Source of the DNA: Spiroplasma chrysopicola DF-1
GTDB taxonomy: Bacteria > Bacillota_I > Bacilli_A > Mycoplasmatales > Mycoplasmataceae
DNA length: 64,000 bases
Assembly: GCF_000400935.1 (NCBI RefSeq)
Contig: NC_021280.1
Location: forward strand, 620,001 to 684,000
Reading direction: 5' to 3'
Positions 10,090 through 25,970 of the stretch are shown here, in pieces; within the stretch, counting starts at the first letter, position 1, and each line of letters opens with the position of its first letter. Below the pieces are notes generated by a model that worked only from the letters and a program-made list of their open reading frames with translations, did not search any database and had not been told where the DNA came from. The translations under genes were made by a program, and so were the position numbers.

Positions 10090-10289
10090 TTAGAAAAATA
10101 ATTCTTTTGGTAAGACAATTTTACCAATAATATAATTATGTAAGTTCCCATAAGAATCAGCAATTACTAATTTAATCCCTAATTCTTCATCTAAAGGTAA
10201 GATTGGTAAATTTTCAAAAACATTATCGTTACTGCTAATAACCGGTTTACCTTGAACAAAATGTTTTGTTCATTTTTTTGGATCTAATA
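10090..10289 (-). pseudogene. C-terminal fragment of an unknown protein, cut by IS3 debris
   Basis: An open frame of about 66 codons with no start, ending in a TAA at 10090. The translation has normal protein character (ends IIGKIVLPKELFF, and uses TGA as Trp once). It runs directly into IS3 transposase sequence at about 10290, so insertion or recombination removed its 5' part. No family was recognised. Confidence 0.5.
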
Positions 10290-10601
10290 CCATTAAATAA
10301 AATTCAAGTATTCCATACAGATCGAGGTAATGAGTTTAAAAATAATTTAATTGAAAAATTAATTTCAACTTTTAATATTACAAGATCTTTAAGTAAAAAA
10401 GGCTGTCCTTATGATAATGCTATTTCTGAATCAACTTATAAAATTTTAAAAACAGAATTAATTAAAAACAGAAAATTTAAAAATGTTGAGTAATTTAAAT
10501 TAGAATTATTTGACTATGTTAATTGATATAATAATGTGCGAATTCACAGCAAATTAAATTATTTAACACCAATTGAATATAAAAATCGTTACTCTATATA
10601 A
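10290..10601 (+). pseudogene. IS3-family (IS150-type) transposase, C-terminal fragment
   Basis: The translation contains the second half of the rve integrase core: FHTDRGNEF, then GCPYDNAISEST with the catalytic Glu region, and the terminal YNNVRIHSKLNYLTPIEY. An in-frame TAA at 10491 interrupts it, and the N-terminal half is absent. It is not functional. Confidence 0.8.
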
Positions 10602-10610
10602 AATTTGTTC

Positions 10611-10727
10611 AAAAAACCCTTGCCATTCCAAATCATTTTGTTCCCATAATAAAAGAATACCTTTCAATAAAATTATGACACATAACTAACTTTTTATGTG
10701 TCTATTTTATTTTAGGTATTCACATAT
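10611..10727 (-). mobile_element. left end of a second IS3-family element
   Basis: About 90 bp (10634-10725) is nearly identical to 38033-38127, including the start of ORF A (MGTKWF...) and the region upstream of it. Here it abuts the 3' end of a different IS3 copy in the opposite orientation, so this is a chimera of two elements. Confidence 0.65.
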
Positions 10728-10757
10728 GAACTTATTTTTTTAGTATTGTTTTTAAAT

Positions 10758-12755
10758 TTATGCTGTTGTAAATTTAACAGTTGCTGTTCCAAAATATTGT
10801 GATATAAATCCTCTTGCAGCAATTGTTGCCGATTTTTTGTCATCACTTATTTTAACAATAACATTGGTGAAATGTTCTAGAGATAATTTAAATTGGGCAT
10901 TAATTGCACTAATAATACTTTCTGAATTAGCTGCTACAATTTTTTTTAAATCAAAGTTAGCTGGAATTAATTTTGCAAGATCTTGGCGATTAATTGCTTT
11001 GAAAGTAACATTGACTGAACCAGAATAGATTTGATCATAATCATCATTACCAAAATCACCATTAAAAGGAACTATTTCTATTGTGACATTATCATTATCA
11101 TCTATTGATTTATCAACTACTTTAATTGACGTTTTATTAACAGTTGGATTTAAACTAATAACTTTATCTATAATAATATCTTGATTAAAATTTTGTAAAG
11201 TTGCTAAATCGATTTCTCCTAAATTTGTTTTTGTTATAATATTGCTTAAACTTCTTTGTTGTTCTCATGCATAATCAATTTTAATTTTTCCTTTGAATAC
11301 TTCTAACTGACTTTTAATCATAAAACTATTATCAGTAATATCAGTTATTTTAAATAAACCTCAGTCACTTAGTGAATCTTCTTTAAGATTATTTTTTTTA
11401 ATAAAAATAGTACCCAATTCTTCTTTAGTTAATTTTTCTTCACTGTATAATTGACCTAAATTTGTTGTTTCTAATTTAAGAATATCATTTATGTCACCAT
11501 TAGTAATGTTAAAATGAACTATTATTTTATATGAAAAGACTGGATTTGTAAGGTATTGGGCGGCAATAAGACCATTTTCATCATGATTTCTAAATAACAT
11601 TGATCCAGGTTTTGGTTTTAAAATAGCACTTGTTGCTGTTAAGTCAGTAATTCAAAAATCTTCTAATAATACATCATGATATTTGTCAAGAAAATCTTTA
11701 CCATAATATTTTTCAACTAAGTCAAAAACTAATTGATTTTTATTTTCTTCATTATAGTTACCAGATAAGTATTCATGAATATCATATTTTTTCGCTGTTT
11801 GTCAATCTGCCCCTTTACCATGTGTTTTAGTCATAAAGTTAGGATTTATATCATTTAAGATTTTAAAATTAAATTGGATTGTTCCTTTCATAAAAATTTT
11901 AAAGTTATTTCTACGGTCCGTAATATCATCTGCTCCAAAAACTAATGAACCTTCATAGTTTTTATTAATTTTTGCTGTTAAAACTGGATTATTAATAATT
12001 GATTGTCCTGGTTCTAAATCACCTATAGTCAAGGAGGCTAACTGAATAATTTTTCCTTGGTAAAATTCAAATAATGGATTACGAGCACCCACGAATTCCA
12101 TTACAATAGGGAAAATAGTTGTTAAAATAGCCATAGTGCTATTATCACTGTTGATAAACTTATCAGCAATTTCATAAGGTAAGTAAACATCATTGATGTT
12201 AGTTAAACTGGCAAAATCAGTTCAATCAAAAGCTTCATCATTAATTTCAACTTCACCTTTAAAGTCCCCTTCTTTTATTCCAGTTAAAGTTACAATGTGT
12301 TTTTCTGAATCAACATTAACTTTTACATCATTTGTTGTTAAATTAGTTTGGTTTAATAAATTAATTAATTCTAATGGTGAAACTTTATCTTTATAAGCAT
12401 CATCGACACCACTAATTGGTAATGAAGTTTTTGTAATAATTTGACTAATATTTTTCGTTGTTGGATGAATTTTAACTGTTTTTGAAATAAATGCTGATTT
12501 TGTTGTTGGTCCCATATAACGAATTGTTGCTTCATTTAAACCTGGTAAAAATTGGATTCTTAGTTTATCAACATTGTTTCCATCTTTTGCTAATAGTTTT
12601 TTTAATGCAAATCCATTTGGAACAGTTTGGTAGCTATCTTTAATATTAAATGTATCAATTGCACTTGCGGCATTTTTAGTTCCACATGCAACTACTGAAG
12701 TTGTTCCAGAAGCAGTAATGGCAATGGTTCCTAAAATACTTAATAATTTTTTCAT
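10758..12755 (-). CDS. large surface lipoprotein of the accessory region
   Basis: A 665-residue lipoprotein with signal peptide MKKLLSILGTIAITASG and lipobox VVACG, assembled across TGA codons. Several internal blocks share a pattern of a beta-rich stretch ending in GD(F/L)KGEVEI or similar, suggesting repeated domains. The RBS AAAAAAGGAG decides the ATG at 12755. Its promoter element resembles those of the other lipoproteins. It lies just downstream of traG and may be an adhesin or surface-exclusion protein, but this is only inference from position. Confidence 0.82.
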
Positions 12756-12799
12756 TTTCTTTTTCTCCTTTTTTCCGTAAATTATCTCAAACAAACTTA

Positions 12800-12828
12800 T
12801 GTTGCCTTTGTGAGATATAATTATTATA
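12800..12828 (-). promoter_or_regulatory. promoter and shared leader element of the 665-residue lipoprotein
   Basis: Minus strand TATAAT followed by ATCTCACAAAGGCAACATA. In this copy ATCTCA can also pair with TGAGAT 20 bases downstream, forming a hairpin at the 5' end of the mRNA. Confidence 0.55.
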
Positions 12829-12949
12829 AATAAAAAGAGATAAAATATTTTTATTTTGTTAAAGTTATTTAAAAAAAAAAAAAAAATGAAAAAGTTTGAT
12901 AAATTAGATTGTTTAAAAGTTATTAAATTTTTAATTATTTTACACATAT

Positions 12950-12977
12950 AAACAAGATTTATTTCAAATCTTGTTTA
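12950..12977. terminator. hairpin at the traG 3' end
   Basis: An inverted repeat AACAAGATTT/AAATCTTGTT overlaps the traG stop codon. The U-tract is poor on the minus strand. Confidence 0.45.
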
Positions 12978-15232
12978 TTTTTATTTATTAAATTCTTATT
13001 TTCTTCTTTATTTATTTTGGTTTGAATGTTGCGATATTTGGCAACAATCTCACGTTCTTCCGGAGTTCTTTCACTTGGTGCTTTAGCTAATAAACTTGTA
13101 ATATTTGGTAATTCAACCTTTTCTTTACTTTGTGAAATTTCTCTTTCTGTTTCTTGTTTAACCAAAATATCAACATCAATATTATTTTTACCGGGAACAT
13201 ATGAAAATAAATTAAAAAAGTAGTCATTCAAGAAATCAACAGTATTGATTTCTTTTTCTTTCCGTTCTTTTCCTAAATTAAACTCCTTCGCGAATTTTCA
13301 AGCTGATTCCATATACACAAGTCCTGGATTTTCTTTAGAACTAAATATGATTCCATAAGGGTTTTTTAGTTTCATCAAATTCCCGGCTTTAATTAATGGC
13401 ATTCCTTCTAATCTAGTTTGTGGGGGATTTTTAATAATTTTTTTTGTTTTTGGGTCGCGAGAAGTTGTATAACTGATAACTTCTACTGTTTGATCACCTA
13501 GCATTTTTGAGTACATTTCTGCTGTTTGTGTATCATTTGTTTGAATATAAATGTTCAAGTTACAGTTGGAACGAATAATTCCCCCGTTTTCTTTTCCATA
13601 TTTTTGATCTAATTGTAAAAAATCTTGTAGAATAAGTAAGAAAAACATTCCTCGACTTCGAGCAACCGTTACAAATCCTTGAAAGTTTGGAATCATTGGC
13701 ATATTCCCAAATTCATCTAAATAAAATTGGATATCTCTTGGCAAACGTTTATTAGATTGTGAATTTGCAACTAAAACATTTGCTTTGTACAGTTGAGAAA
13801 CAAATAAACTGGCCAGAATATGGCGGTTAGTTTTTTCATCAGGTACTATTAAAAATAACGCTTTTGGTTTATCAGTAAATGTAAATAAATTAATATCATT
13901 TTTACAGACAATAGTCTGAATTCCGATATCTTGATAAATTTGTAAGCCCCGATCTAAAGTTGAAAGAATAGAACCCAGTTCTTTATCTCCTGTTTTCAAA
14001 GCATTTGACCCTACTATTCGGGCCATTGATTTTAAAGATAAGGAATTATGTCATTGTTTCATTTTTTGGCGGTCAGCAACTAAAATTCCAATAGTTGGTA
14101 AATTAAACATTTCTAGTGTCAATTCATTAGGGTCTTTATCCAATATTTCTAGCATTCCTAACATCAAGCATTTAGTAATGCTTCCGGCCATTGTAGAAAA
14201 ATGGTCGTTATCGCTCCCTTTTAATGGCCAAATTGTTAAAACTAGATCATTAATTTCTTCAATAGCAAAAGATTTTAATTCTCGTTTCATTGTTTCGCAT
14301 AGCAGTTCTGCTTTACTTACTTTTCTAAATCACATCTTTTCAAAAATAGCTATTTGCCCTTTTTCTTCTAGTGAATTTAAACATTCATAACAAAAACTTT
14401 CTTCATGATCATAACACTTAATGTCTTTCAATTTTTCTTTTATCTCTTCTAAGTTATTGAAATTAACTCTTTTAATTTGCTCATGCAATGTAACTGAATC
14501 AAAATAGTATTTGAATGCAATAGCTAGCGGGTTTCAAGATGATGATAATTTAGCATCACGTAAATTTAAGGTCAATACTTCATATCCCTTTTCCTGTAAT
14601 GGTTTAGAAAGATTTTGATATAACTCTCCTTTTGGATCAGTAAAAACCATACATGGTTGTTTTTCAAAAGCCAAATTTGCATTATAGATTGCTGAGGGCA
14701 TTACGATTTTTTGAGACTTTCCGGAATTTGTCGCTCCTAAACAAACAGCATGCGTATTATCTCGAATGTTAAAAACTAGCTCATTTTTGTTTTTAATAAA
14801 TCTTGTTGCTCAACCAGGTTGCTCAGAATTTATAAGACTATGATTAGGATATAGTTCATTGAAAGATTCTATTTTTCCCTTTTCTTTTAGTTCATTAACT
14901 ATTCACTTTGCCGCACCATATTCAGTTGAATCTACTTCTTTAATATAAACTTTTCCCAATTCTTTTTTAATTAAAATAATAATAAAAGTTATAGTTCAAA
15001 AAATGGCAGTTAGAATTACGCATAGCAAAGTTATAAAAACCGGATTTTCTTTAATAAACAATCATAAAAAATCAAAATATTTAAGTAATTTAAACCCTTC
15101 CATTTTTCATACTTTCAAAAATGGAATTATCACAACCCCAATTCCTAAAACAAACGGAAATATAATAATAGAGTTAATTAAAGATTCTTTTCTAGGTTTA
15201 TTTCAAAATTTCTTTTTTTCTTGATTATCCAT
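12959..15232 (-). CDS. traG: VirD4/TraG-family type IV coupling protein
   Basis: A 757-residue ATPase. The first 120 residues contain two to three membrane helices. Walker A is GATNSGKSQ, followed by the AIYNANLAF and DPKGELY segments; Walker B is YLDEFGNMP, followed by RSRGM, all typical of VirD4/TraG proteins that bring DNA to a conjugation channel. The C-terminal 90 residues are a charged tail. The start overlaps the stop of the preceding 97-codon gene by 8 bp. No VirB4/TraE gene is in the window, so the conjugation apparatus here is incomplete or encoded elsewhere. Confidence 0.9.
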
Positions 15233-15518
15233 TAAAACTTAGCACTCCAAAAACTATAACTCCAATTATTGCAATTGCTAATACTATAAAATTAAAAATT
15301 AATCTAATTTTTATTTCTCTTTTAGCTTTGCAAATTTGTTTTTCATCTAACTTTTTAATTTCTTGTTTTAATTCAGGTTTACTATTAACTCATTTTTGAA
15401 AATATTTTGATCATATTTTTTGACAGTACTTATTTCACTTAACAAAAATAATAATTTCATAAATTACTAAAACTATTGATAAAAACATCAATGCCGACAT
15501 TGTTGTTTGATAAGTCAT
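15225..15518 (-). CDS. small membrane protein upstream of traG
   Basis: 97 residues with one hydrophobic helix at each end (MSALMFLSIVLVIYEIIIF and FNFIVLAIAIIGVIVFGVL) and a basic middle segment rich in Lys. RBS AAAGGA. It overlaps traG by 8 bp, so it is translationally coupled to it and may be a partner of the coupling protein. Confidence 0.75.
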
Positions 15519-15555
15519 ATTAATATCCTTTCCTTTTGATTTTGTTCTTTACCAA

Positions 15556-15600
15556 ATAAAAAACACATGCATACGATAAAAATCGTAGCATGTGTCATTT
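15556..15600 (-). terminator. intrinsic terminator of the three-gene operon 15623-16678
   Basis: A long stem: ACACATGC plus TACGAT paired with ATCGTA plus GCATGTGT, followed by T6 on the minus strand. It closes the transcript of the three small ORFs to the right. Confidence 0.8.
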
Positions 15601-15622
15601 GGTCATCTACAAAGATATTATA

Positions 15623-15940
15623 CTATATTATTTTATATTTTTTAGGGCCAATAATTAATACTGGTAATTCTGATGATACTTTGTCTTCATTTTCTTTTCT
15701 TTGATTTATAAAATTTGCTAAACCATCACTAATTAATTTTATACAATCGGCTTCTTTTCCTATAAAATGCAAATATCCTCTTTCTGTGCCTACATTTAAT
15801 AATCATTCTAAGGTTAAATTAAAATAAACTATTAAAGGTATTTCTGAAATATTCAAATTGTCAGAACTTTTATATAACAAAAAATTAGTATCAAAAATAG
15901 AATTATATTTTTCAATATTTATATTTTTTTCTATACGCAT
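15623..15940 (-). CDS. hypothetical protein, third ORF of a three-ORF cluster
   Basis: 105 residues, no signal peptide or motif I recognise. The ATG overlaps the stop codon region of the preceding ORF by 10 bp. It may be the C-terminal part of a protein now split into three reading frames (see 15931-16215 and 16217-16678). Confidence 0.55.
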
Positions 15941-16215
15941 TTGTTTTTTTCAAAAATTAAACTACAATTTTTTCTAAGAATACATACCATACCAAGATTT
16001 GGATCTGGTATCGCAAAAAAATCTTTTCCTATACTATACACAGGTGGATCAGGAATAATAAAAAAATCAATATTAGTTACAAGTTGTAAAGCAAAATAAT
16101 TAAAATCCTCAATATTTTCATCAGTAATTTCAAATTTTTTATAAAAATTTTCACGTTCTTTATTAATTTGATTAATATCAAGAGCAAGGACCATTCTAAC
16201 TCTTAAATTATCCAT
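15931..16215 (-). CDS. hypothetical protein, possible middle part of a DUF4238-like protein
   Basis: 94 residues. The segment NIDFFIIPDPPVYSIG followed by FAIPDPNLGM resembles the DUF4238 C-terminal pattern F-x-T/I-x-D-x-P-V ... P-x-x-P. It starts one base after the stop of the preceding ORF. It could be a separate coupled gene or part of a broken larger one. Confidence 0.5.
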   Translation of the reverse strand: MDNLRVRMVLALDINQINKERENFYKKFEITDENIEDFNYFALQLVTNIDFFIIPDPPVYSIGKDFFAIPDPNLGMVCILRKNCSLIFEKNKCV

Positions 16216-16216
16216 A

Positions 16217-16678
16217 TTATCAATTTTTTTTATTAATTTTACTAGTGTTAGAACATACTTCTGCTATTTTAATCTTTGAGCCTTTTGAATAAGAGCGAAA
16301 AATACATAGCCTAATAAAATTATATATTATTTTATACTTATCTTTTAATAAATAGTTTAGCTTTTTGGATAATGAATCATTAGAAAGATTAATACTATTT
16401 TCAATTATTTTTTTGGCTGAAGTTGAAACTTTTTCAATATATGGCTGTTCAATTAAATTTCAATCCTCTTCATATTTTTTTATTTGTTTTATATCTAAAT
16501 TAAGATAAAAATTATCGTTATCATTAACATAAATATTTAAATCATTATCAGAATTAATAATTTCAAAATTATATTCACCCGTAGATAAATCAATTTTAGC
16601 AATTCCAAAATTTTTATTGTTTAGGTATTTTAAAAATATTTTTTTTAATAAAGATTGTGGAAAAATATGTGATTTCAT
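16217..16678 (-). CDS. hypothetical protein, possible N-terminal part of a DUF4238-like protein
   Basis: 153 residues. The start MKSHIFPQSLLKKIF and the later YNFIRLCIFRSYS are reminiscent of DUF4238 (HY-x-P-x-x-x-L-x-x-F and LxxFIxLQxxR). RBS AAGGAG. The first gene after the tRNA transcription unit. The family call is weak and made by eye. Confidence 0.5.
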
Positions 16679-16744
16679 TATTTAATTCTCCTTAGAATTT
16701 AAATTATATACTGCATTATATCATTAAAATAATTTTTAAAAACA

Positions 16745-16768
16745 AAAAAACTAACATATAGTTAGCCT
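16745..16768 (-). terminator. terminator of the class II tRNA gene
   Basis: CTAAC-TATAT-GTTAG followed by T7 on the minus strand, starting 6 bases after the tRNA 3' end. Confidence 0.75.
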
Positions 16769-16773
16769 TTCTG

Positions 16774-16855
16774 TGATCAATACGGGACTTGAACCCGCAC
16801 GTTTTTCAACAGCTGATTGGTAATCAGCTATGTCTACCAATTCCATCAATTGATC
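16774..16855 (-). tRNA. class II tRNA with leucine-type body and anticodon ACC
   Basis: An 82-nt cloverleaf on the minus strand. The acceptor is a perfect 7-bp stem (GATCAAT/ATTGATC) with discriminator A73. The D-arm ATG-GAATTGGTAGA-CAT is of the leucine type (like GTGGAATCGGTAGACAC of E. coli tRNA-Leu). The anticodon stem GCTGA/TCAGC encloses loop TTACCAA, giving anticodon ACC (codon GGU, Gly). A 13-base variable region contains GTT-GAAA-AAC. The T-arm is GCGGG-TTCAAGT-CCCGT. CCA is not encoded. It has its own terminator and no sign of decay. Identity is ambiguous: body Leu, anticodon Gly. Confidence 0.8.
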
Positions 16856-16876
16856 ATAATAATATTATCATAAAAA

Positions 16877-16954
16877 CTATTTTTTTAACATCACTAATAA
16901 AATTTCATATTTGTAGCGCTTAAACAAAGTATTTATAATTCATCAATAATTTTT
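16877..16954 (-). pseudogene. remnant of the HYWW-repeat protein gene
   Basis: The translation (TGA as Trp) KNYWWIINTLFKRYKYEIL matches the second repeat and C-terminus of the 86-residue protein at 17841-18101 at both protein and DNA level. Only about 25 codons remain, immediately upstream of the tRNA. A local duplication has been cut short. Confidence 0.6.
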
Positions 16955-16988
16955 TACTATATATAAAAGTATCATAAATATTACTATA

Positions 16989-17597
16989 CTAACTTAATAT
17001 AATACCTTTTGACATATTTGCTGTTCCATAGACACTTGTATATGAATTATATGCAGCCACAAATTGATAACTAGCAACTTGTAGATAATAATTACTATTT
17101 TCTTTATATCAAGTATATCCTAAATAAACCCATGCATCTATGTTGGCTAAAAGAGATCATTTCTCATCTTTATATTTAAGTATTGTAGTAAATTTTTTTG
17201 CATCATCTGTACTAGTTATTTTATAATTATTTTCTTTTTTAAATTCTAAAGGTATTGATTGACCAATATCATAGTTTCAATAGGCACTGCCCCATTTAAC
17301 TTCTGAATTAGCTGAACCTAAAAATTTAAGTAATTGATACTCTGGTTTACTCTGCCCTAAATTTATAGTTTTTCAGTCTCATGTATGATCAGATGCACTA
17401 GTGCCAGCTCCTCAAGGAGTTGCTTTTGCTTCTACTATTCAGTCATTTTTAGTACTATCATTAAAATAAAAAATAGATTCTCTAGATTCAGAATCAATAT
17501 TTTGATTCAGATTTTTTTCATAAGTAAGGTATGTGATTGAGCTAAAACTTGTTGATAAAATTCCAGCCCCAGCAATAATACTTAGTAATGCTTTCAT
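16989..17597 (-). CDS. secreted or membrane-anchored protein, unknown
   Basis: 202 residues, many TGA Trp codons (WDWKT, YTWYKEN). The N-terminus MKALLSIIAGAGILSTSFSS is a signal peptide without a lipobox Cys, so the product is secreted or anchored by the uncleaved helix. The rest is rich in Trp, Tyr, Ser and Thr, as in small beta-sandwich or binding proteins. The start follows AAAGGA. No family was recognised. Confidence 0.72.
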
Positions 17598-17840
17598 AAT
17601 ATAAAAGTCCTTTCTGATAACCCACCCAATTCCCTACCATTATTTAATAAATAATTAATAGTAAATAATAAAATAATTTTATTTAATAAAAACTAAAAAA
17701 TATTATTTTATATAAGTTAAAAATTAATGTTTTAGAGATATATTTTATTATGTTAATACTTTAAATATAATTAATTAGTATATTTTTATGTCACAATATA
17801 TTTTTATATTTATATTATAACTCTTAAAAAAACAAATTTT

Positions 17841-18101
17841 CTAGATATTTTTTATTATTTTCATTAAAATTTCATATTCATAATGTTTAAACAAAGTACT
17901 TCTAATTCATCAATAATGTTTTCGATCTAACTCAGTATCATTTGTTCAGGGCGAAATTTCTTGGCCCTTTTTTGCTTTTTCAACCGCATTATTTATTTTA
18001 TTAAAAGCATCTAAAATTTGCTCTTTAGTATAGAGGCGAAATAAAGTATTTTTTACCCATCAATAATGTCTGTGATCAAGTTTATTATTTAAATTTTCCA
18101 T
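17841..18101 (-). CDS. small protein with two HYWW repeats
   Basis: 86 residues. Two copies of a motif, DHRHYWWVKNTLFRLY and DRKHYWWIRSTLFKHY, are separated by a helical, charged segment. Each repeat uses tandem TGA codons for Trp, so the gene is invisible in the standard code. RBS AAAGGAG. A partial paralog lies at 16877-16954. Function unknown. Confidence 0.68.
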
Positions 18102-18104
18102 ATT

Positions 18105-18239
18105 TTAATTACTCTCCTTTTTAATTCGCGCTTGGACTTCTTGATCAACTTGTCTAATAGTTCGATGCAATTTTTTAAGCATGATATTTTTAATATCTTC
18201 AGAATCAAAACTAAATAATAATTTTAATTGCTCTAACAT
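18105..18239 (-). CDS. small ORF, possible displaced C-terminal tail
   Basis: 44 residues (MLEQLKLLFSFD..., helical and basic at the end). It overlaps the truncated methylase ORF by 29 bp in another frame and ends just before the 86-residue protein, whose RBS lies inside it. It may be a real coupled small gene. Confidence 0.45.
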   Translation of the reverse strand: MLEQLKLLFSFDSEDIKNIMLKKLHRTIRQVDQEVQARIKKESN

Positions 18240-18501
18240 GACATATAGGATATGCAAGTGTCTTTAAATAATTTAACTCTATTAAATGGATTCCTTCTTG
18301 TCAAAAAGAAATTAATTCAGTATGTAAGTCATTAAAAATTACTTGATTACATAAATTTTGGTCTAAAACATTTAAACCAACTGAGGCACCCCCACAAAAT
18401 AGATCAATGAACATATCAAAATTACCCGGTAAAAATGATTTTATTTTATCAAAATGTTTAGCTTTTCCACCCGGCCAAATTAATGGACTAATAAATTTCA
18501 T
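18211..18501 (-). pseudogene. Dam-type (D12 class) adenine-N6 DNA methyltransferase, truncated
   Basis: The N-terminus has the D12-class hallmarks: LIWPGGKAKHFDKI (SAM-binding, cf. WAGGK), FIDLFCGGASVGLNV, and NDLHTELISFW. Dam enzymes run to about 270 residues with the catalytic DPPY motif; here the frame stops after 96 residues and no DPPY is seen. The 5' end is tightly coupled (TAAATG) to the preceding gene. It is probably inactive. Confidence 0.75.
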
Positions 18502-18867
18502 TTATTGACTCTTTTTATAAATTTCCATTTCTTTTGGATATTCTTCAATTTGATCTAAACACTTTTGATATTTATAGGTGCTTTGGCTAATAACCTCTAA
18601 CTTAGCTATTTTTTTAATATTGATAATATTTTTGATACTATTAATTTTTTCAATTTCTAAACAAAATATTTCATTTAGTCTATCATTTAAATCTTGGTTA
18701 TGAAATTCATTAGATGCTAACATTAAACTTTCATATGCACCAATAATATAACCTCAACATTTTGTAATTAAAGTTGTTTTACCACTTTCTAACTGTTCTT
18801 TTAACATTGGCCAACTATCAAAATTTCTTTTATTTTTTGATTTTGGATACTTTACATAACTGATCAT
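18502..18867 (-). CDS. hypothetical protein upstream of the truncated methylase
   Basis: 121 residues, largely helical and charged, with IEKINSIKNIINIKKIAKLEV as a central helix-forming part. A GTG 12 bases upstream is better placed relative to the AAAGGA Shine-Dalgarno than the ATG at 18867. It overlaps the preceding small ORF and its stop directly abuts the methylase ATG, so these genes are co-translated. Function unknown. Confidence 0.65.
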
Positions 18868-18994
18868 AATGATTATCACAAAGTCCTTTCTTTAATTTTT
18901 TTGAATAAAACTTTATTTTTCTAGTGCATAGTCAACTTTGCTGGCAATATTCAGTTGATAACTCTTTTAATTCAACTCAGTCATTATTTGGCAT
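18830..18994 (-). CDS. small Cys-containing protein
   Basis: 54 residues with four Cys (CQQSWLC and, later, LCDNHYDQLC) and a basic centre, consistent with a small zinc-binding fold. RBS AGGAG. It overlaps the next gene by 38 bp and follows topA by 14 bp. Confidence 0.6.
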
Positions 18995-19008
18995 AATTAT
19001 CTCCTATT

Positions 19009-20799
19009 CTAACTTACGATATTTTTGCAAGCAGGAAAGTTATTACATGCTTTAAAATAATTACCTTTGTAACTTTTGCGCTGAATAATATAACCAATAT
19101 TACATTTATCGCATTTAACTGAATCTTTAAATATCATGTTAGTTGCATTATTAAAATCTAAAATAAAGTTATTATAAAATAATTTTAGAAATTCAATATG
19201 ATTAATTTCTCCATCTGCAATTCTGTCTAATACCTTTTCCATATCAGCTGTATATTTTTCATTAATAATATTTGAAAAATATTTTTGCAATAAATTATGG
19301 GCTTTAATACCATCTTCAGTAGGATAAATGCTTTTCTTATCAAATTTAATATATTCACGGTTAATTAAGGTTTTCATAATTGTGGCATATGTTGAAGGCC
19401 TTCCGACACCTTTAATTTCAAGTTTTTTAATTAATGAATGTTCTGTATATCTTGAACTAGGTTTTGTAAAATTTTGTTCAGCTAATCATTTTGAATCTAA
19501 AGTTATTATTTCTCCAACTTTAAAATGATAATTAAAATTATCTAAAGCAATTTCTTGTAAATCATAATAACTAGTAAAGTGATATTTTTTAAAATTTAAT
19601 TTAAAAGTATATCCGTTATTAGAAAATAATACTTTATATTTAACACCAGTTTCATTTGCCATTAAAGCATATAAGGTATTGTTATAAATTAATTCATATA
19701 ATTTATATTCATCGTAATTAGCAATTTCTTTTTTAGCTTTTTCTAGTGTTAAATTAATATTTGTTGGCCGAATTGCTTCATGTGCATCTTGCACATTATC
19801 TTTAGTCTTACCGGGCTTATATTGACCAACATATTCTTGGCCATAATTTGTTGCAATAAATTTATGGACTGCTACTACAAAATCATCGTTAAGTCTTGTA
19901 GAGTCTGTTCGTGGATAAGTAATATATCCATTTTCGAATAAATGTTGCAATAGAGTTGTTGTTTTTTCACTAGAATAATTTAGATCTATATTTGCATCTT
20001 GTAAAATACTTGATGTTGTATATGCGTTATAAATATTTTTGTTGAATTCGGTTTCAATGATTTCCTTTACAACTAGATTATTAGTAATTTTAGATAAAGC
20101 TTGTTCTGCTTTTTCTTGTGAATTAAGAACTTTATCTTTCACAATTTCTTTACCATCTTGATCTAAATATAATTCAATTTCGTTTTTATCTTTATATTCT
20201 TGTTTAATAGTTCAGTACTCTAACTTATTGTGTTCTTTTCTTTCTAACTCAGTATCTACAATTAACTTTAAAGCTACTGATTGAACTCTCCCAGCAGATT
20301 TTAAATTTTCTGCTTTTTGGAGTAAATTTGATAACTTAAAGCCCATAATACGATCAATCATTTGGCGCGATTGTTGAGCATTAACTAATTGATAATCTAA
20401 TTGCCCGGGATTACTAAAAGCATTTTCAATTGCTTTTTCTGTGATTTCATTAAAAGTTAATCTAATTGTTTTATTTTGACATTTTAATTGCTCTTGCAAA
20501 TGCCATGCAATAGCTTCTCCTTCTCGATCAGGGTCAGTTGCTAAAATAACTTTATCAACTTCATTAGCAAATTGAGTTAATTGCTTTATAGTATCTTTTT
20601 TGTTTTCGACAACATTAAATATTGGAGTCATAGTATCTAATTCTATTCCCAATGGATACTTTTCATTTTTTATTACTAATTCTGTAATATGACCCATTGA
20701 GGCCTTTACAAGAAAACTATGTTGAGGAAATACTTTTTCTAGATAAGATTTTACTTTATTAATTTTGTTAGGTGATTCTAACACTACTAAATATTTCAA
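19009..20799 (-). CDS. topA: DNA topoisomerase I, accessory (element-borne) copy
   Basis: A 596-residue type IA topoisomerase. The TOPRIM domain is at the start (VVLESPNKINKVKSYL, then ATDPDREGEAIAW), and the active-site Tyr lies in GYITYPRTDSTRL. Only one Cys4 zinc finger is present (CDKCNIGY...CNNFPACK) at the C-terminus. It is shorter than a chromosomal TopA. Type IA enzymes travel with conjugative elements, which fits the traG gene 4 kb away. The frame crosses two TGA Trp codons. Confidence 0.93.
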
Positions 20800-20856
20800 T
20801 TTAGCACCTACTTTCTATATAAAATATTGATATAATTTTTAAAAGGATGATAAATT

Positions 20857-21603
20857 ATGTTTAAAAACAAGAATAATAGGATTTTATTTGAAAATAATAT
20901 TTCTAAACAAGATTTTATAATTCGTTTAATTTATGCTGAGTTAAGATTTATTTCAATTCATGAAATTACTAAAATCATTATTGATGAGACACTTGAAGAA
21001 ATTAGATTATCTGATGGATATGGAAATTCAAATAGTCCAAAAAGTTTTTTACTTGATTTACAAGCTGAATTTATTAATTTTTTTAGTTTATGAAAAAATG
21101 AATATAGTGAAAATGAAATAACAATAGATATCTATTCAAAAATTGGGGATTTAGTGCCTATTATCAAACCTTGAAGTAAATCTAAATACTTAGAAATTGC
21201 ACCAGGAAAACCTACAAGAACAAATAGAATTAATACATTTTCAAATCCATTAGATAAAAACAATAACTTTGGAGGAACTCTATATTATCCATTTCCACTT
21301 TTAACAAGAACGGAGCATAATCACACAGCATTTATTTTATTTGAAGAATCAATTGTAGACAAAAAAATAAAAGATACAGTATATAAAACATATTCTCTTA
21401 AAAATGTTTCATATATTTTGGATAAAGTTTATTTCAATAAAAATCGATTAGTATTAAAAGATATAGAAATAAATAAAGATACAAATGAACAATTACATAG
21501 ATTACAAGGAATAATTAAAACATGGCCTTGATTTGCTGTTATATTGTTTAATTGTATATTTAACAAAGATTGAAAAATAATTAATAGATTTCAAATAGAT
21601 TAA
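20857..21603 (+). CDS. hypothetical protein, the only plus-strand gene of the accessory block
   Basis: 248 residues, cytosolic. It has N-terminal helices (QDFIIRLIYAELRFISIHE) then a beta-rich part with NNFGGTLYYPFPLLTRTEHNHTAF, and an end rich in Trp and Ile. RBS AAAAGGATG. Divergent from topA and convergent with the next gene, overlapping it by 23 bp at the 3' end. No family was recognised. Confidence 0.7.
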
Positions 21604-22219
21604 ATTCTACTAATGTTTTTATAAAAATATACATATTTAAAATTTCATCTTTATTATAGTCACTTGCTAAAATTCATTCTTCATTTCTTATAATTTTTTT
21701 ATATGATTTTTCTAGTTCTTCCAGAAATATTTGATTATTTGATCAATATTTTTTATTTTCAGAAATTAATTTTAATATAAAAGGTTTATAGCCAGAATGA
21801 ATAAGGATTGATTTTGAAATTACTGATTCCAAATTTTCAAAAAAACTAGAATTTTTAAATAAATTTAACTCTATAACATCTCTAATAAAAGAAAACATAC
21901 TTAATATTTTTTGATTATTATAATTACTTATTAAGATAAGTTCTTTATTTTTTAAAATTTTTTGTTGTTGTATTTTTAATTTCTTTAAAAATATTTTTAT
22001 ATTTGACCAGTAGTCATAATTCTCAAAAATTAGTTTTAAAAGAAATATTTTATACTCTGAAGAGATAAATATTGAAACTGAAATTGTTGATCCCAAATTT
22101 CTAAAAAATTCTGAGTTCTTAATGTCTCTTGAATTATACTTTGTTATTTTTCTCATTTTATTTAATTTTAAAAAATTTCTTTTAGTCATATTTATATTTT
22201 CTTTTTTTAAATTTGCCAT
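21581..22219 (-). CDS. protein with two tandem repeats of about 88 residues
   Basis: 212 residues. The first repeat begins NSEFFRNLGSTISVSIFISSEY and the second NSSFFENLESVISKSILIHSGY; both continue with a YWS(N)N motif, a Lys-rich helix, a (I/W)ILASDYN-like segment and end in a hydrophobic VE(L)NLF. The internal duplication is clear. Function unknown. Very low GC, as for the neighbours. Confidence 0.7.
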
Positions 22220-22247
22220 TTAATATACATTCTTTCTATTTTAGTAA

Positions 22248-22559
22248 TTAATATTTAAATATTTTTAAATTTTTAAAGTTCTGTTTTGCTAAGAAAAATG
22301 TTTTAACTATTTTTGCATTCAATGCAACATAAATAATTGTCCTTAATAAAAAAATATTTATTATTTGTTTGTTGCATATTTCACATTGTCCAATAACATC
22401 TTCCATTGGACAATTTAATAAATCCAAATAACATTCAGAGCATAGAAACATATTTAACGCGTCAAATTTTCTAAAAGCTAAAGGTATTATTTTTGCCCCA
22501 GCTTCAATGCATAACTCACAAAATTGTTGTTTTTTATTTTCTTTTTTTAAATTTTCCAT
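22248..22559 (-). CDS. small zinc-ribbon-like protein
   Basis: 103 residues with three CxxC pairs (CELC, CSEC, CEIC) arranged as a zinc-ribbon or treble-clef module, then a hydrophobic and basic C-terminal part. It begins MENLKKENKK, similar to the start of the next gene downstream (MANLKKEN). Probably a nucleic-acid or protein-binding factor of the element. Confidence 0.65.
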   Translation of the reverse strand: MENLKKENKKQQFCELCIEAGAKIIPLAFRKFDALNMFLCSECYLDLLNCPMEDVIGQCEICNKQIINIFLLRTIIYVALNAKIVKTFFLAKQNFKNLKIFKY

Positions 22560-22582
22560 TTAATGTACAGTCTTTCTATTAA

Positions 22583-22717
22583 TTAGCAACTTAAAGATAT
22601 CTTTCACTTTTGTATTTTTTTATAGCATAAATAATGCATTATCATATTAAATTTATTAACTGTATTACCATGTCTTATTTTTTTATTACAAAAATTACAA
22701 ATTTCAGATTTCTTCAT
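22583..22717 (-). CDS. small CxxC protein
   Basis: 44 residues, MKKSEICNFCNKKIRHG..., with one CxxC pair and a later HYLC, enough for a small zinc site. RBS GGAG sits within the end of the preceding gene. The short length makes the call tentative. Confidence 0.5.
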
Positions 22718-22721
22718 AACT

Positions 22722-23153
22722 TTATTCTCCTTCTGGTAATTGATCTATTTTTCCTAAACCATCTGACGTAACTATTCACTCATACATATGATTATGAATA
22801 TCTTCCTCACCATCAAATTCGCTTGGGGATTTACAATTCTTACAAATATCCTTGTTTTCTATTTTTTCAGTATTAGTATAAGGACATGCTTTAAAAAAAT
22901 CTTTTTGAGTTAATTTTACTTCTTCCTTATTTACTCCATATTTTTCAATAGACCATTCTTGTAGTTGATCTAATGTATTATGTAAAATATTTATTAAATT
23001 AATGAAATTTGTTCCTTCTGAATTTTGTCTGGTTTCTTTCCTAATTACTTCAGCATATCTAAGTCGTTCTAAAATTTCATTACGGTAACTGTCATTACTA
23101 ATTATTTGTTTTAATTTTTTACCATCAATATTTTCTTTAAGTATTTTACTCAT
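22722..23153 (-). CDS. hypothetical protein with Cys cluster
   Basis: 143 residues. Helical N-terminus (KLKQIISNDSYRNEILERLRYAEV), then a central CPY...CKNCKSP Cys cluster, and an acidic tail (SEFDGEEDIHNHMYEW). It is full length only when TGA is Trp. It overlaps nothing, and ends 5 bp before the 44-residue Cys protein starts. Confidence 0.65.
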
Positions 23154-23155
23154 AA

Positions 23156-23599
23156 TTAATTAAACCTTCCTATATTTAAATAAGTATCACTTTTGTTAGC
23201 TAATGTATTTTGTAATTCCATTGCTTGCTGTAAGTATTGTTTTGAATTATTTCTTTTCATTTCTTCAAATGCTTCAAAAAGTTTTTTACCATTTATCGAA
23301 ATAATTTCTTCAACTCCTTTTTCTCCATATACTATTTGTTCATAATCTCTGTTAAAAACGCAGGCTGTCGCAAAATACCCTGTCGGACAATAAATATGCC
23401 CTGGATTATTTTCACCAACTCCTAAACATGTATTTTCACTTCCACATGGCCATTTTTTGCTGATTTGAAATCATTCTCTTGATCACCAAATAACAGCTTT
23501 CGGATTAACTGGCGATTGAACTGCAAAAGCTGTTTTCTTTTCAGTTCATTTAACTAAATAACGTTTATTTAAAAAAACTTGTTTTTTAATTTGTTCCAA
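23156..23599 (-). CDS. hypothetical protein with conserved Cys/Trp core
   Basis: 147 residues. The core WPCGSENTCLGVG...IYCPTGYFATACVF contains four Cys in a pattern suggesting a metal site or disulfides. The best start is a TTG at 23599, placed after AAAGGA; no ATG is available in frame. Its stop overlaps the start codon region of the following gene. Function unknown. Confidence 0.6.
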
Positions 23600-23618
23600 A
23601 TTAGAATGTTCCTTTCTA

Positions 23619-23882
23619 TTAAAATTTTTCTTTGTTATAAATATTATTTTTATCAAAATTTTTATCAGTAATAACTGTATCAATAACATTAATATAATCT
23701 TTCATAATTTTTAAATAAATGCCTCAATTTGAAATTATTGGTTTTTTTATAAAAAAACATTCACAAATAGTTATTCTATTTTTTAAATCAAATAAATCTA
23801 ATTTAAATCCTAGACTAATATGATTTTTTATTTTAATTTCATATTTTCGTTTATATTTATTATTAAATTCTTCAATTGTCAT
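23619..23882 (-). CDS. hypothetical small protein
   Basis: 87 residues, basic, predicted mixed alpha/beta. The middle holds DLKNRITICECFFIKKPII. RBS AGAAGGG. It is 20 bp from the next gene, in the same operon-like run as the surrounding small genes. Confidence 0.6.
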
Positions 23883-23901
23883 AATGTTTATTCCCTTCTA
23901 A

Positions 23902-24306
23902 TTAAAGATTTTCTAAATCTTTTATTAATTGTTTAGTATCTATATTGGCATTATTAACTGAATTATTCTTTTTTTGATACATCTGATGAAATTCATCAAT
24001 TGTATTTTGTTTTTTACTATTTGAAAAAATAAAATTTTTAATAATTTCACTACCTGGTTTGTAATCTTTCAAATTCTGTAAATCTGTTTTTAAAAATATT
24101 GGATACAGATCTGTATTACTAATACCAACCGTTAAACAGTTAGCAAATCCTTCGTCATTAAAAACTCAATTAGCTTTTACATAAAATACTTCTAAACTAA
24201 CAGATGGATTATTTATGAAATAACCTATTAATTTACCCTGCTTATTTTCTAAACGATGATAAATTTCAGAATTTAGTATGTATAGATTGTAAATATTTTT
24301 TGCCAT
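23902..24306 (-). CDS. hypothetical protein
   Basis: 134 residues with no signal peptide. It has a beta-rich start (KNIYNLYILNSEIYHRL...) and a helical Lys-Asn-rich end. RBS AAGGAAAA. No family was recognised. It is part of the minus-strand gene run ending at 24801. Confidence 0.62.
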
Positions 24307-24318
24307 TATTTATTTTCC

Positions 24319-24801
24319 TTATCACATATGATTTGGACCAAAAACTATTATTCGTCTTGGTAAATTAAGTTTTTTCACATAATAGTCAACAACTCTTGTT
24401 GATGACAAATTTAATTCTTTTGCTATGTTTGCATATGATAATCCTTTTGAATGTAGCATTCTTATTTGTTCTGCTTTATTATAATTTTGTAAACTAACAT
24501 TTAAAGGCATTCTAAAATAAGGTTTAAGTAATGGTTCTAACTGATCACAAATTCCTCCTTCACGATCATATCTATAACTACCACGATATTTATAAAGATT
24601 AACGAAACGCCAAACTGTACCAATCGGAATTTCATATTTTCTTGATATATCAGTAGCGCTTAAACCATCTATATATATTTCTTTTAAACATTTCATAATA
24701 AACTCATCAGAATATTTTAAATTTCATGCTTTTTTACGTCTTCCAGTTTCGTCATAAAATAAGTTTTCATAAGTTCCTATCGGTGAATTATTAATTTTCA
24801 T
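24319..24801 (-). CDS. double helix-turn-helix DNA-binding protein
   Basis: 160 residues. Two helix-turn-helix motifs are visible: GLSATDISRKYEIPIGTVWRFV (residues about 46-67) and GLSYANIAKELNLSSTRVVDYY (about 118-139). This resembles the N-terminal DNA-binding part of IS-type transposases or of invertases, but no catalytic domain follows. It is likely a regulator or a transposase-derived protein of the element. The first 30 residues are seen only with TGA as Trp. Confidence 0.72.
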
Positions 24802-24877
24802 TGTTACTACTTCCTCCCTAGTTGTTGTCATTGATTGGAATCACTGATTTTTTCAGCAACAGCCACTCACTGTTTTT

Positions 24878-24964
24878 TTAATCAATTTCTAATCTTTGTT
24901 TTAATCACTGATGTGCCAAATTAATAAAAAAATCAAAATTTACGCAATAAAAAACACTTTTCAT
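24878..24964 (-). CDS. very short ORF with strong RBS
   Basis: 28 codons (MKSVFYCVNFDFFINLAHQW...) preceded by AAAGGAG at good spacing. It could be a leader peptide of the helix-turn-helix gene downstream. The length gives little support. Confidence 0.3.
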
Positions 24965-25167
24965 AATTAGACACTCCTTTCGTACTAATTTTTAAAGCTT
25001 GATATGTTTAATTTTGAAATTGGGCGCATAAAATATTGTTTTAATAAAATAATGTTAATTTTTAATATAGTTTGTATTTGACTTTTTGACACATGTATAT
25101 AGTTATATTTAATTTTGTTTTGATATAGTTAAAAAGTAATGTTCCTTGTATCCTTCCTTTCTTAACA

Positions 25168-25299
25168 CATATATACATAATTCTTGAGACTAGCCTGATT
25201 TTGATTTAAAAGTTGATTAAAAATTGATTAAAATAAAACAATAATAGATATGTATCAAATGCCTCATTTTTAACTAATCCCAAGAATTATGTATATATG
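25168..25299 (-). repeat. long inverted-repeat unit 1
   Basis: Two 26-base arms (25168-25193 and 25274-25299) are complementary except at two positions, enclosing 80 bases. Read as minus-strand RNA the two exceptions become G-U pairs. The unit is preceded on the plus strand by AAAAAGTAATGTTCCT (25131-25146), which recurs before unit 2. Confidence 0.65.
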
Positions 25300-25410
25300 C
25301 GATTTAAAGAATAAAATTAGTCTTAGTTTTGAGTATCTTTCTTCTTTAAATTATTTATTGATCATATAAAATATTAAAAAAGTAATGTTCCTGTTGCACT
25401 TCCCTTCAAC

Positions 25411-25558
25411 GTATATACACTAAATTCTTGGGACTAACCATATTATTATTAGCAAGATTCTAAATGGACTCAATCAGAAAGACTAGAAAGGAGATTATCA
25501 ATAGGAACATATCGATAATTAAGTGCTTTAGCTAATCCCAAGAATTTAGTGTATATAC
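25411..25558 (-). repeat. long inverted-repeat unit 2
   Basis: Two 27-base arms (25411-25437 and 25532-25558) enclose 94 bases. The loop-proximal part (AATTCTTGGGA-TTAG) is common to unit 1, while the distal part differs from unit 1 on both arms together, which keeps the pairing. The same 16-base sequence AAAAAGTAATGTTCCT precedes it. The loops of the two units are unrelated. Confidence 0.65.
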
Positions 25559-25568
25559 AATTTAAGCA

Positions 25569-25600
25569 GTAAAAAAGACTGAATAATTTCAGTCTTCTAA
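25569..25600 (-). terminator. terminator after the 37-residue membrane peptide gene
   Basis: AAGACTGAA-ATTA-TTCAGTCTT followed by T6 on the minus strand, 6 bases after the stop codon at 25606. Confidence 0.75.
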
Positions 25601-25605
25601 AATGC

Positions 25606-25719
25606 TTATAAAATATGGGTTTCCGAACAACCACTTTTTTTATTCGGTCAAAGCACTGATGTATAAAAACCACACACATTTAAGACCACTAGCGCTAATA
25701 ATAATTGAATTAAATCCAT
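25606..25719 (-). CDS. small single-helix membrane peptide
   Basis: 37 residues: MDLIQLLLALVVLNVCGFYTSVL is one membrane helix, followed by a short polar tail with Lys and Cys. A terminator follows directly. It reads through a TGA Trp codon. 29 bases inside it (25663-25691) are repeated at the IS30 insertion point near 61-62 kb. The size and shape would fit a phage coat or small toxin-type membrane peptide, but no match is established. No clear RBS. Confidence 0.5.
25663..25691. repeat. intact copy of the sequence that hosts the IS30 insertion elsewhere
   Basis: TAAAAACCACACACATTTAAGACCACTA type sequence: the left half ends at 60932 and the right half restarts at 62023, with the IS30 element between. 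Here it is uninterrupted. Confidence 0.7.
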
Positions 25720-25970
25720 ACTTATTACTTGTTAAACTAATTGGATTATATTGGGATCATCTTTAAACTAGTACTTTGAAAAAATAGAGTACTCACTAAT
25801 ATTAAATAATAACTTTTTCTTGGTTTTGCTCCCTTAACTAGTAATTTAAACAATCTTTGAGAAAGGGTTATCATACATTATTAATATTTTTATATATTAA
25901 TTATAAAATTTTGGCTGATAATTTTCAATATTACTAGGAAATTAAATATTTTGGACAATTAATAGCAAAT

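Follow-up and report, generated by a model that had tools for sequence, protein, structure and literature searches.

A leucine-bodied tRNA gene with a glycine anticodon on a genomic island

We analysed a 64,000-nucleotide stretch (hereafter the window) of the Spiroplasma chrysopicola DF-1 genome, which is a single contig of 1,123,322 bases. In these 64 kb ARAGORN called a single tRNA (16773-16855, minus strand, anticodon acc), and Rfam model RF00005 matched 16774-16855 on the same strand over the whole model, with a score that rules out a chance match (52.1 bits, E 2.6e-08). Both programs agree with the initial annotation that the window holds no other tRNA. The features of the locus are as follows.

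10289..25946, no strand: genomic island with IS3-like sequence, traG/VirD4, topA, a truncated methylase and unknown ORFs; the sister genome G008 lacks it at this position
12959-15232: traG (VirD4/TraG protein)
16742..16773, minus: hairpin in the 3' flank, directly after A73 where CCA would stand; T-run in the 3' arm; may be a weak intrinsic terminator
16774..16855, minus: tRNA-like gene with a class II body of Leu type and A73, without CCA (ARAGORN, Rfam, stem parse)
16819..16821, minus: anticodon ACC in the loop TTACCAA, reading GGU (ARAGORN, anticodon at position 35, and sequence)
16859..16888, minus: promoter-like TTAAAA/18/TATTAT, at chance level
16898..16975, minus: degenerate partial copy of the neighbouring 86-aa ORF (17841-18101), frame broken, adjoining the tRNA on its upstream side
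18211..18501, minus: truncated D12-class adenine DNA methyltransferase ORF (PF02086, E 8e-13)
19009-20799: topA (topoisomerase)

The gene had been placed on a mobile region between traG and topA, and both points held. The island spans about 15.4 kb, from about 10289 to 25686 or 25946, its right edge having two possible positions owing to a 66-nt match at 25687-25752. It carries traG/VirD4 and IS3-like sequence and is missing from the corresponding site in G008, which two proteins (88% identity) mark as the closest among 13 relatives in the genus. Both flanks of the island align with G008 at 90-92%, about 1.1 kb of other sequence lies between them there, and the miaA-ribF distance is about 18.8 kb here versus about 4.4 kb there. 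The GC content of the tRNA-like gene is 41.5%, against 24.5% for the island. The methyltransferase ORF covers the first 62 of the 253 PF02086 profile positions, a sign of decay within the island. Comparison of 10 island proteins with PADLOC for a defence or toxin partner gave one weak match only (E 0.0068).

The intact cloverleaf of the initial annotation was confirmed, with all pairs present in the acceptor (7/7), anticodon (5/5) and T stems (5/5, including one G-U) by stem parse and in the D stem (3/3) by hand. In a minimum-energy fold of the tRNA alone, the anticodon and T arms form but the full cloverleaf does not. The acceptor/T-stem geometry is 7/5, the discriminator is A73 and the variable arm is long. 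The D-arm motif GGAAUNGGNAGAC is shared with the three host tRNA-Leu and is absent from the 28 remaining distinct tRNA sequences of the host. The gene accordingly has the class II form, GGAAUNGGNAGAC D-arm and A73 of a bacterial tRNA-Leu, but ACC in place of an NAG or NAA anticodon. Conversely, it has the NCC anticodon of a tRNA-Gly, but a long arm and A73 instead of the class I form, short variable loop and U73 (host tRNA-Gly has U73 and is 74 nt long). A misfolded anticodon was ruled out, as ARAGORN, Rfam and the stem parse all give ACC, and the Leu-type class II body with a Gly anticodon that had first been read from the letters is supported. The best host match is tRNA-Leu(UAA), identical at only 55 of 82 positions, which excludes a recent copy of a host gene; a duplicated host tRNA was likewise ruled out, as at E <= 0.001 the genome holds no match besides the gene itself. 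Given this divergence, the intact body stems suggest that pairing has been kept over a long time.

The 3' end and aminoacylation

The letters after A73 are CAG, and no CCA occurs in the 3' flank as far as the T-run. Rfam counted 33 tRNA genes in the genome, and ARAGORN likewise found 33 in the stretches retrieved, which amount to 32 distinct sequences. The CCA end is encoded in 32 of the 33 genome tRNA genes, the sole exception being the tRNA-like gene; all 32 other host genes (31 distinct sequences) carry it. Mollicutes generally encode CCA, the CCA-adding enzyme having been lost very early in the group, and RNase Z is not required there, according to the available text of PMC4014445. The encoded CCA expected of a functional Mollicute tRNA is missing from the tRNA-like gene. 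The CCA-adding enzyme family PF01743 gave no match at E <= 10 in the genome itself (control positive in 11 of 14 genomes) and none at E <= 0.001 in 40 genomes, namely this one and 39 relatives (control 10/14), which matches the early loss given in that part of PMC4014445. For RNase Z, no match reached the curated cut-off in the genome (best 39.7 bits versus 292.95; controls above the cut-off in 9 of 14); the three matches to the model are probably other metallo-beta-lactamase-fold proteins.

Because no CCA is encoded and no CCA-adding enzyme family was detected, the RNA would by known routes remain without CCA and uncharged, although a repair enzyme of an unrecognised kind might still alter this. 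The initial annotation had proposed that the RNA, if charged with Leu, would insert it at Gly codons. The missing CCA, undetected PF01743 and lack of an RNase Z match at the cut-off speak against this, and the first two remove the basis for Leu insertion at GGU. GGU makes up 104 of the 295 Gly codons (35%) in ten window ORFs outside the island, and an active Leu-carrying version would therefore act proteome-wide.

Flanking sequence and distribution

Folding of 16738-16856 (minus strand; z -5.94 for that whole segment) gave a 14-bp hairpin in the 3' flank that starts at A73 itself. The terminator reported earlier is plausible in view of this hairpin and its T-run but is weak, and a strict terminator scan found none at the gene because the stem is poor in G-C pairs. 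Promoter-like sites were at chance level (3 in a 401-base region versus a shuffle mean of 4.3). Immediately upstream, the degenerate copy is 80.8% identical over 78 nt to 17865-17941. The statement that the gene shows no decay thus stands for the cloverleaf but not for the surroundings, with this broken ORF copy and the truncated DNA methyltransferase.

A stricter sequence pattern for the gene matched one of 99 genomes (this one and 98 relatives), and a looser pattern matched one of 395 genomes of the class, in both cases its own genome only. Lack of the gene in relatives had been named beforehand as a mark of random decay; the failure to find it in the 98 relatives and in the 394 others of the class speaks for a relic. 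With a 111-base query, blastn gave weak matches in 9 of 59 relatives (72-95% identity over 22 to 73 bases). A plasmid or phage origin was considered and rejected: blastn returned one plasmid and 12 phage records, each covering about 60% of the query at 60-80% identity. Ten of the phage records have an annotated tRNA-Leu at the match and two have nothing, the plasmid record has no annotated feature, and the Enterococcus phage match is an ordinary tRNA array. Judged by title or abstract start among the matches listed, full-text literature searches returned nothing about this gene and no paper on CCA-less Leu-bodied RNAs with Gly anticodons, with subscription papers mostly uncovered.

Leucine-bodied RNAs with glycine anticodons elsewhere

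We searched 84,980 species genomes and viral contigs with a Leu-body/Gly-anticodon pattern and obtained 41 stretches in species genomes and 14 in viral contigs. ARAGORN called the former as 17 Gly and 20 Leu with 4 uncalled, two of which (L059 and L063) parse as Gly in the stem parse, and the latter as 6 Gly, 3 Leu and 3 other with 2 uncalled. The stem parse covered the loci from L052 on, the window and the host tRNA loci (229 rows after duplicates were dropped) and gave 183 rows with a Leu anticodon; of the remaining 46, 24 have a Gly anticodon. As the 24 include the window gene twice (window and L234), there are 22 other distinct sequences, a tally that depends on patterns fixing part of the D-arm, loop and T-arm. 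CCA is not encoded in 18 of the 22. Twelve have fewer than seven acceptor pairs, none of them encoding CCA, while four of the remaining 10 do encode it. Among the 183 Leu-anticodon rows, the acceptor is 7/7 in 168 and below in 15, some of which are surely mis-parsed; 77 encode CCA and 106 do not, and lack of CCA outside Mollicutes therefore means little alone.

A looser viral pattern gave 20 stretches, 16 of them new, which ARAGORN called as 2 Gly(acc) and 1 Ser with 13 uncalled and mostly not tRNA-like. By eye, L244, one of the two new Gly(acc) calls, is Leu-type in its body, with mismatching at the outer end of the acceptor. A still looser pattern gave at least 120 stretches, and 103 of the 108 new ones among the matches listed are tRNA-Leu. 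Leu bodies in viral contigs also carry Ala (L113, L127) and Arg anticodons (the L214 group, L224, L231), so Gly is not exclusive to Leu-bodied RNAs, which weakens the parallel with the Spiroplasma gene.

These loci, for example L054, L060, L074, L084, L085 and L101, resemble the Spiroplasma gene in their Leu D-arm, long arm and TNCCAA loop, mostly without CCA, and several of the Leu-bodied Gly-anticodon RNAs are by eye followed by a terminator-like hairpin. The 12 of 22 with a mismatched acceptor differ from the Spiroplasma gene, in which all seven pairs form. Closest in build is L101, from a viral contig, with anticodon UCC, a 7/7 acceptor, A73 and no CCA.

RNAs with mismatched acceptor stems

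In the 12 acceptor-mismatched RNAs, the D, anticodon and T stems are 100% paired, with covariation, whereas the acceptor is 71.4% paired, with at least two of its pairs mismatched in 10 of these RNAs. All five anticodon-stem pairs vary on both sides somewhere in the set, which includes two near copies (L067 and L088). Four of five measures lay above all 500 shuffles; the fifth, pairs changed on both sides, was not above chance (14 versus a shuffled mean of 12.4, 95 of 500 as high). Since the rows were picked for fewer than seven acceptor pairs, only the body pairing is independent evidence; the parse itself demanded at least four of five anticodon-stem pairs. Nine of the 12 reach the gathering score of the Rfam tRNA model, the exceptions being L059, L067 and L088.

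Neighbour profiling of 8 proteins at 5 of the 12 loci placed L054 and L074 near terminase genes, L055 beside an integrase, L085 near a phage-type primase/helicase and a methyltransferase, and L058 near a DNA methyltransferase, a neighbour of no diagnostic value. The L074 and L085 sequences recur in the viral contigs L093 and L100. L054 and L074 also have in common a second protein family (phrog_8470 and relatives; L054:203-2041, L074:7401-7988), encoded some 1.4 kb away from the RNA on the other strand. These two loci appear prophage-like, and the second common protein would belong to a phage protein family. We read the set as evidence that mobile elements maintain genes for Leu-bodied RNAs that are tRNA-shaped and probably uncharged, and mimics that look unchargeable appear to recur.

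Two further arrangements were observed. In Bacteroidota, three loci (L059:633-717, L063:4472-4555 and L084:3489-3570) form a conserved unit of a Leu-bodied RNA with a GCC anticodon and mismatched acceptor, followed by a CTCGAAAGAG hairpin and then a terminator-like hairpin of GCCCGAAAGGGC and a T run; Rfam matched L063 and L084 as tRNA only and left L059 unmatched. In 3 of the 22 Leu-bodied Gly-anticodon RNAs (L068:294-377, L073:1066-1151 and L082:5581-5664), all with a GCC anticodon, the downstream sequence contains the reverse complement of 12-16 nt of the anticodon arm (0 of 200 shuffles as good), which by eye can form a hairpin with GGC in its loop ahead of a terminator-like hairpin. Downstream of the Spiroplasma gene, no such reverse complement occurs in the window.

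Comparison with known systems

Allo-tRNAs were reportedly described by Mukai et al. in 2017. These too are bacterial tRNAs with anticodons that do not fit the body, but in the available text of PMC7609411 they have an 8/4 or 9/3 acceptor branch and are suggested Ser isoacceptors, whereas the Spiroplasma gene is 7/5 and Leu-type. The nematode nev-tRNA-Gly(CCC), as far as the accessible part of PMC4300185 describes it, likewise joins a variable arm of the Leu kind to a Gly anticodon; its maturation is normal and it accepts Leu in vitro, with no Gly-to-Leu peptide detected. The initial annotation had named nev-tRNA as its precedent. Unlike this eukaryotic tRNA, the Spiroplasma gene lacks a CCA end, and no enzyme that could add one was detected.

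We also searched the genome for T-box leaders and obtained four candidates at E <= 4e-5; a fifth match at E <= 1 was weak (E 0.854). In a second search, only three candidates appeared at E <= 0.01, and none reached the Rfam gathering score.

G000:C1:724383-724584: T-box leader before pheS
G000:C1:388203-388387: T-box leader before valS
G000:C1:699025-699206: T-box leader before thrS
G000:C1:713302-713480: T-box leader before ileS

The downstream pheS, valS and thrS exceed the NCBIfam cut-offs, and ileS, on an incomplete ORF, gave E 9e-168 and lies below the full-length cut-off. Given these four positions, a Gly T-box role was judged unlikely.

The tRNAOther of Bacillus cereus, a pseudo-tRNA, is the best functional precedent for an island tRNA-like gene outside translation. 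In the part of PMC3399842 available, this tRNA-shaped gene adjoins a genomic island and its proposed role is not in translation; the RNA accepts Lys poorly in vitro and was tested in T-box control of trpS1. It has a Trp anticodon, whereas the Spiroplasma gene has a Gly anticodon, a Leu body and no CCA, and no Gly T-box was found here. The missing CCA and the undetected enzyme family point towards a pseudo-tRNA of this kind, a tRNA fold that may serve no purpose in translation.

A candidate tRNA mimic and its rivals

Our preferred reading, held tentatively and with less than even confidence, is that the gene encodes an uncharged tRNA mimic and not a translation adaptor in its host. The RNA would stay uncharged and, if active at all, would be a tRNA mimic carried by the mobile element. 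It might then keep an anticodon nuclease, a synthetase or a tRNA-modifying enzyme occupied, through that protein's recognition of the tRNA body and the anticodon arm. Omission of CCA in a lineage without the CCA-adding enzyme would then be the counterpart of the mismatched acceptor ends seen elsewhere. The reading is supported by the missing CCA, which all 32 other host tRNA genes encode, with PF01743 undetected, and by the stems kept intact despite divergence together with 12 similar RNAs with paired, covarying bodies. It is weakened by the fully paired acceptor and A73, both expected of a functional tRNA-Leu, by the class sample, which yielded no homologue, by the decaying surroundings, and by the one covariation measure of the 12 RNAs that stayed at chance; no partner toxin or target was found. 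A close rival, also short of an even chance, is a stranded passenger, that is, a foreign tRNA-Leu-like gene brought by a mobile element, functionless and in early decay with its CCA already lost. The missing CCA suits this account equally, as do the occurrence in one of 395 genomes, the neighbouring ORF fragment and truncated methylase and the promoter-like site at chance level, but all stems are still paired and the GC content of the tRNA stands apart from that of the island.

Either of these is more likely than an inserter of Leu at Gly codons. Charging by LeuRS and entry of Leu at GGU would fit the Leu-type body, A73 and long arm, and the nematode nev-tRNA-Gly with a V-arm was charged only with Leu in vitro (PMC4300185, available part); yet this adaptor is improbable, with CCA not encoded, the CCA-adding enzyme family not found, a large burden at 35% of Gly codons in ten ORFs and, in the same text, the nematode tRNA yielding no detected Gly-to-Leu peptide. 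Still less probable is a T-box or similar regulator in which the uncharged tRNA would read a Gly specifier, in the manner in which tRNAOther acts on trpS1; the genome has T-box candidates and tRNAOther offers a precedent beside an island (PMC3399842, in the part available). Against it, none of the four leaders is a Gly leader and no candidate passes the gathering score. T-box read-through also requires the tRNA 3' end, which counts against this role. An unusually shaped glycine tRNA charged by GlyRS has C35 and C36 of the anticodon in its favour, but is very improbable in the face of the missing CCA, A73 versus U73 in host tRNA-Gly, the class II arm and the tRNA-Gly(UCC) that the host already has. 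Mollicute tRNA-Gly(UCC) reads all GGN codons, a further point against it.

As to what the preferred mimic would do, phage tRNAs have been proposed to evade tRNA-targeting defences (PMC10264068, in the text available), and on that proposal a decoy role is conceivable, although the proposal is not evidence for one. The decoy idea of the initial annotation gained no support from a partner among the 10 island proteins compared with PADLOC. It is possible, but on balance doubtful, that the Spiroplasma gene is the Mollicute version of an undescribed class of RNA scattered among mobile elements. Its members would be Leu-bodied mimics with an anticodon for Gly, or in some cases for Ala or Arg, held in tRNA shape by selection yet unchargeable, through mismatched acceptors where the host adds CCA and through CCA omission in Mollicutes, and would serve as decoys for anticodon-arm readers. 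If made and uncharged, the Spiroplasma RNA would be a natural tRNA mimic whose charging is blocked by genome reduction, and a clean test case for a role outside translation; the similar RNAs, with their covarying bodies and mismatched acceptors, would make the evolution of unchargeable tRNAs in mobile elements testable. If the gene is only a relic, it cautions against calling conflicts of isotype and anticodon recoding before the 3' end is checked.

Further leucine-bodied RNAs in viral contigs

Two other groups came up among the viral contigs. Six loci (L118, L121, L148, L161, L186 and L211) have a Leu-type D-arm, T-arm and acceptor around an unusual centre without a normal anticodon arm. Another six (L214, L218, L220, L222, L225 and L230) are Leu-bodied with the Arg anticodon ACG and an encoded CCA, several of them being near-identical copies.
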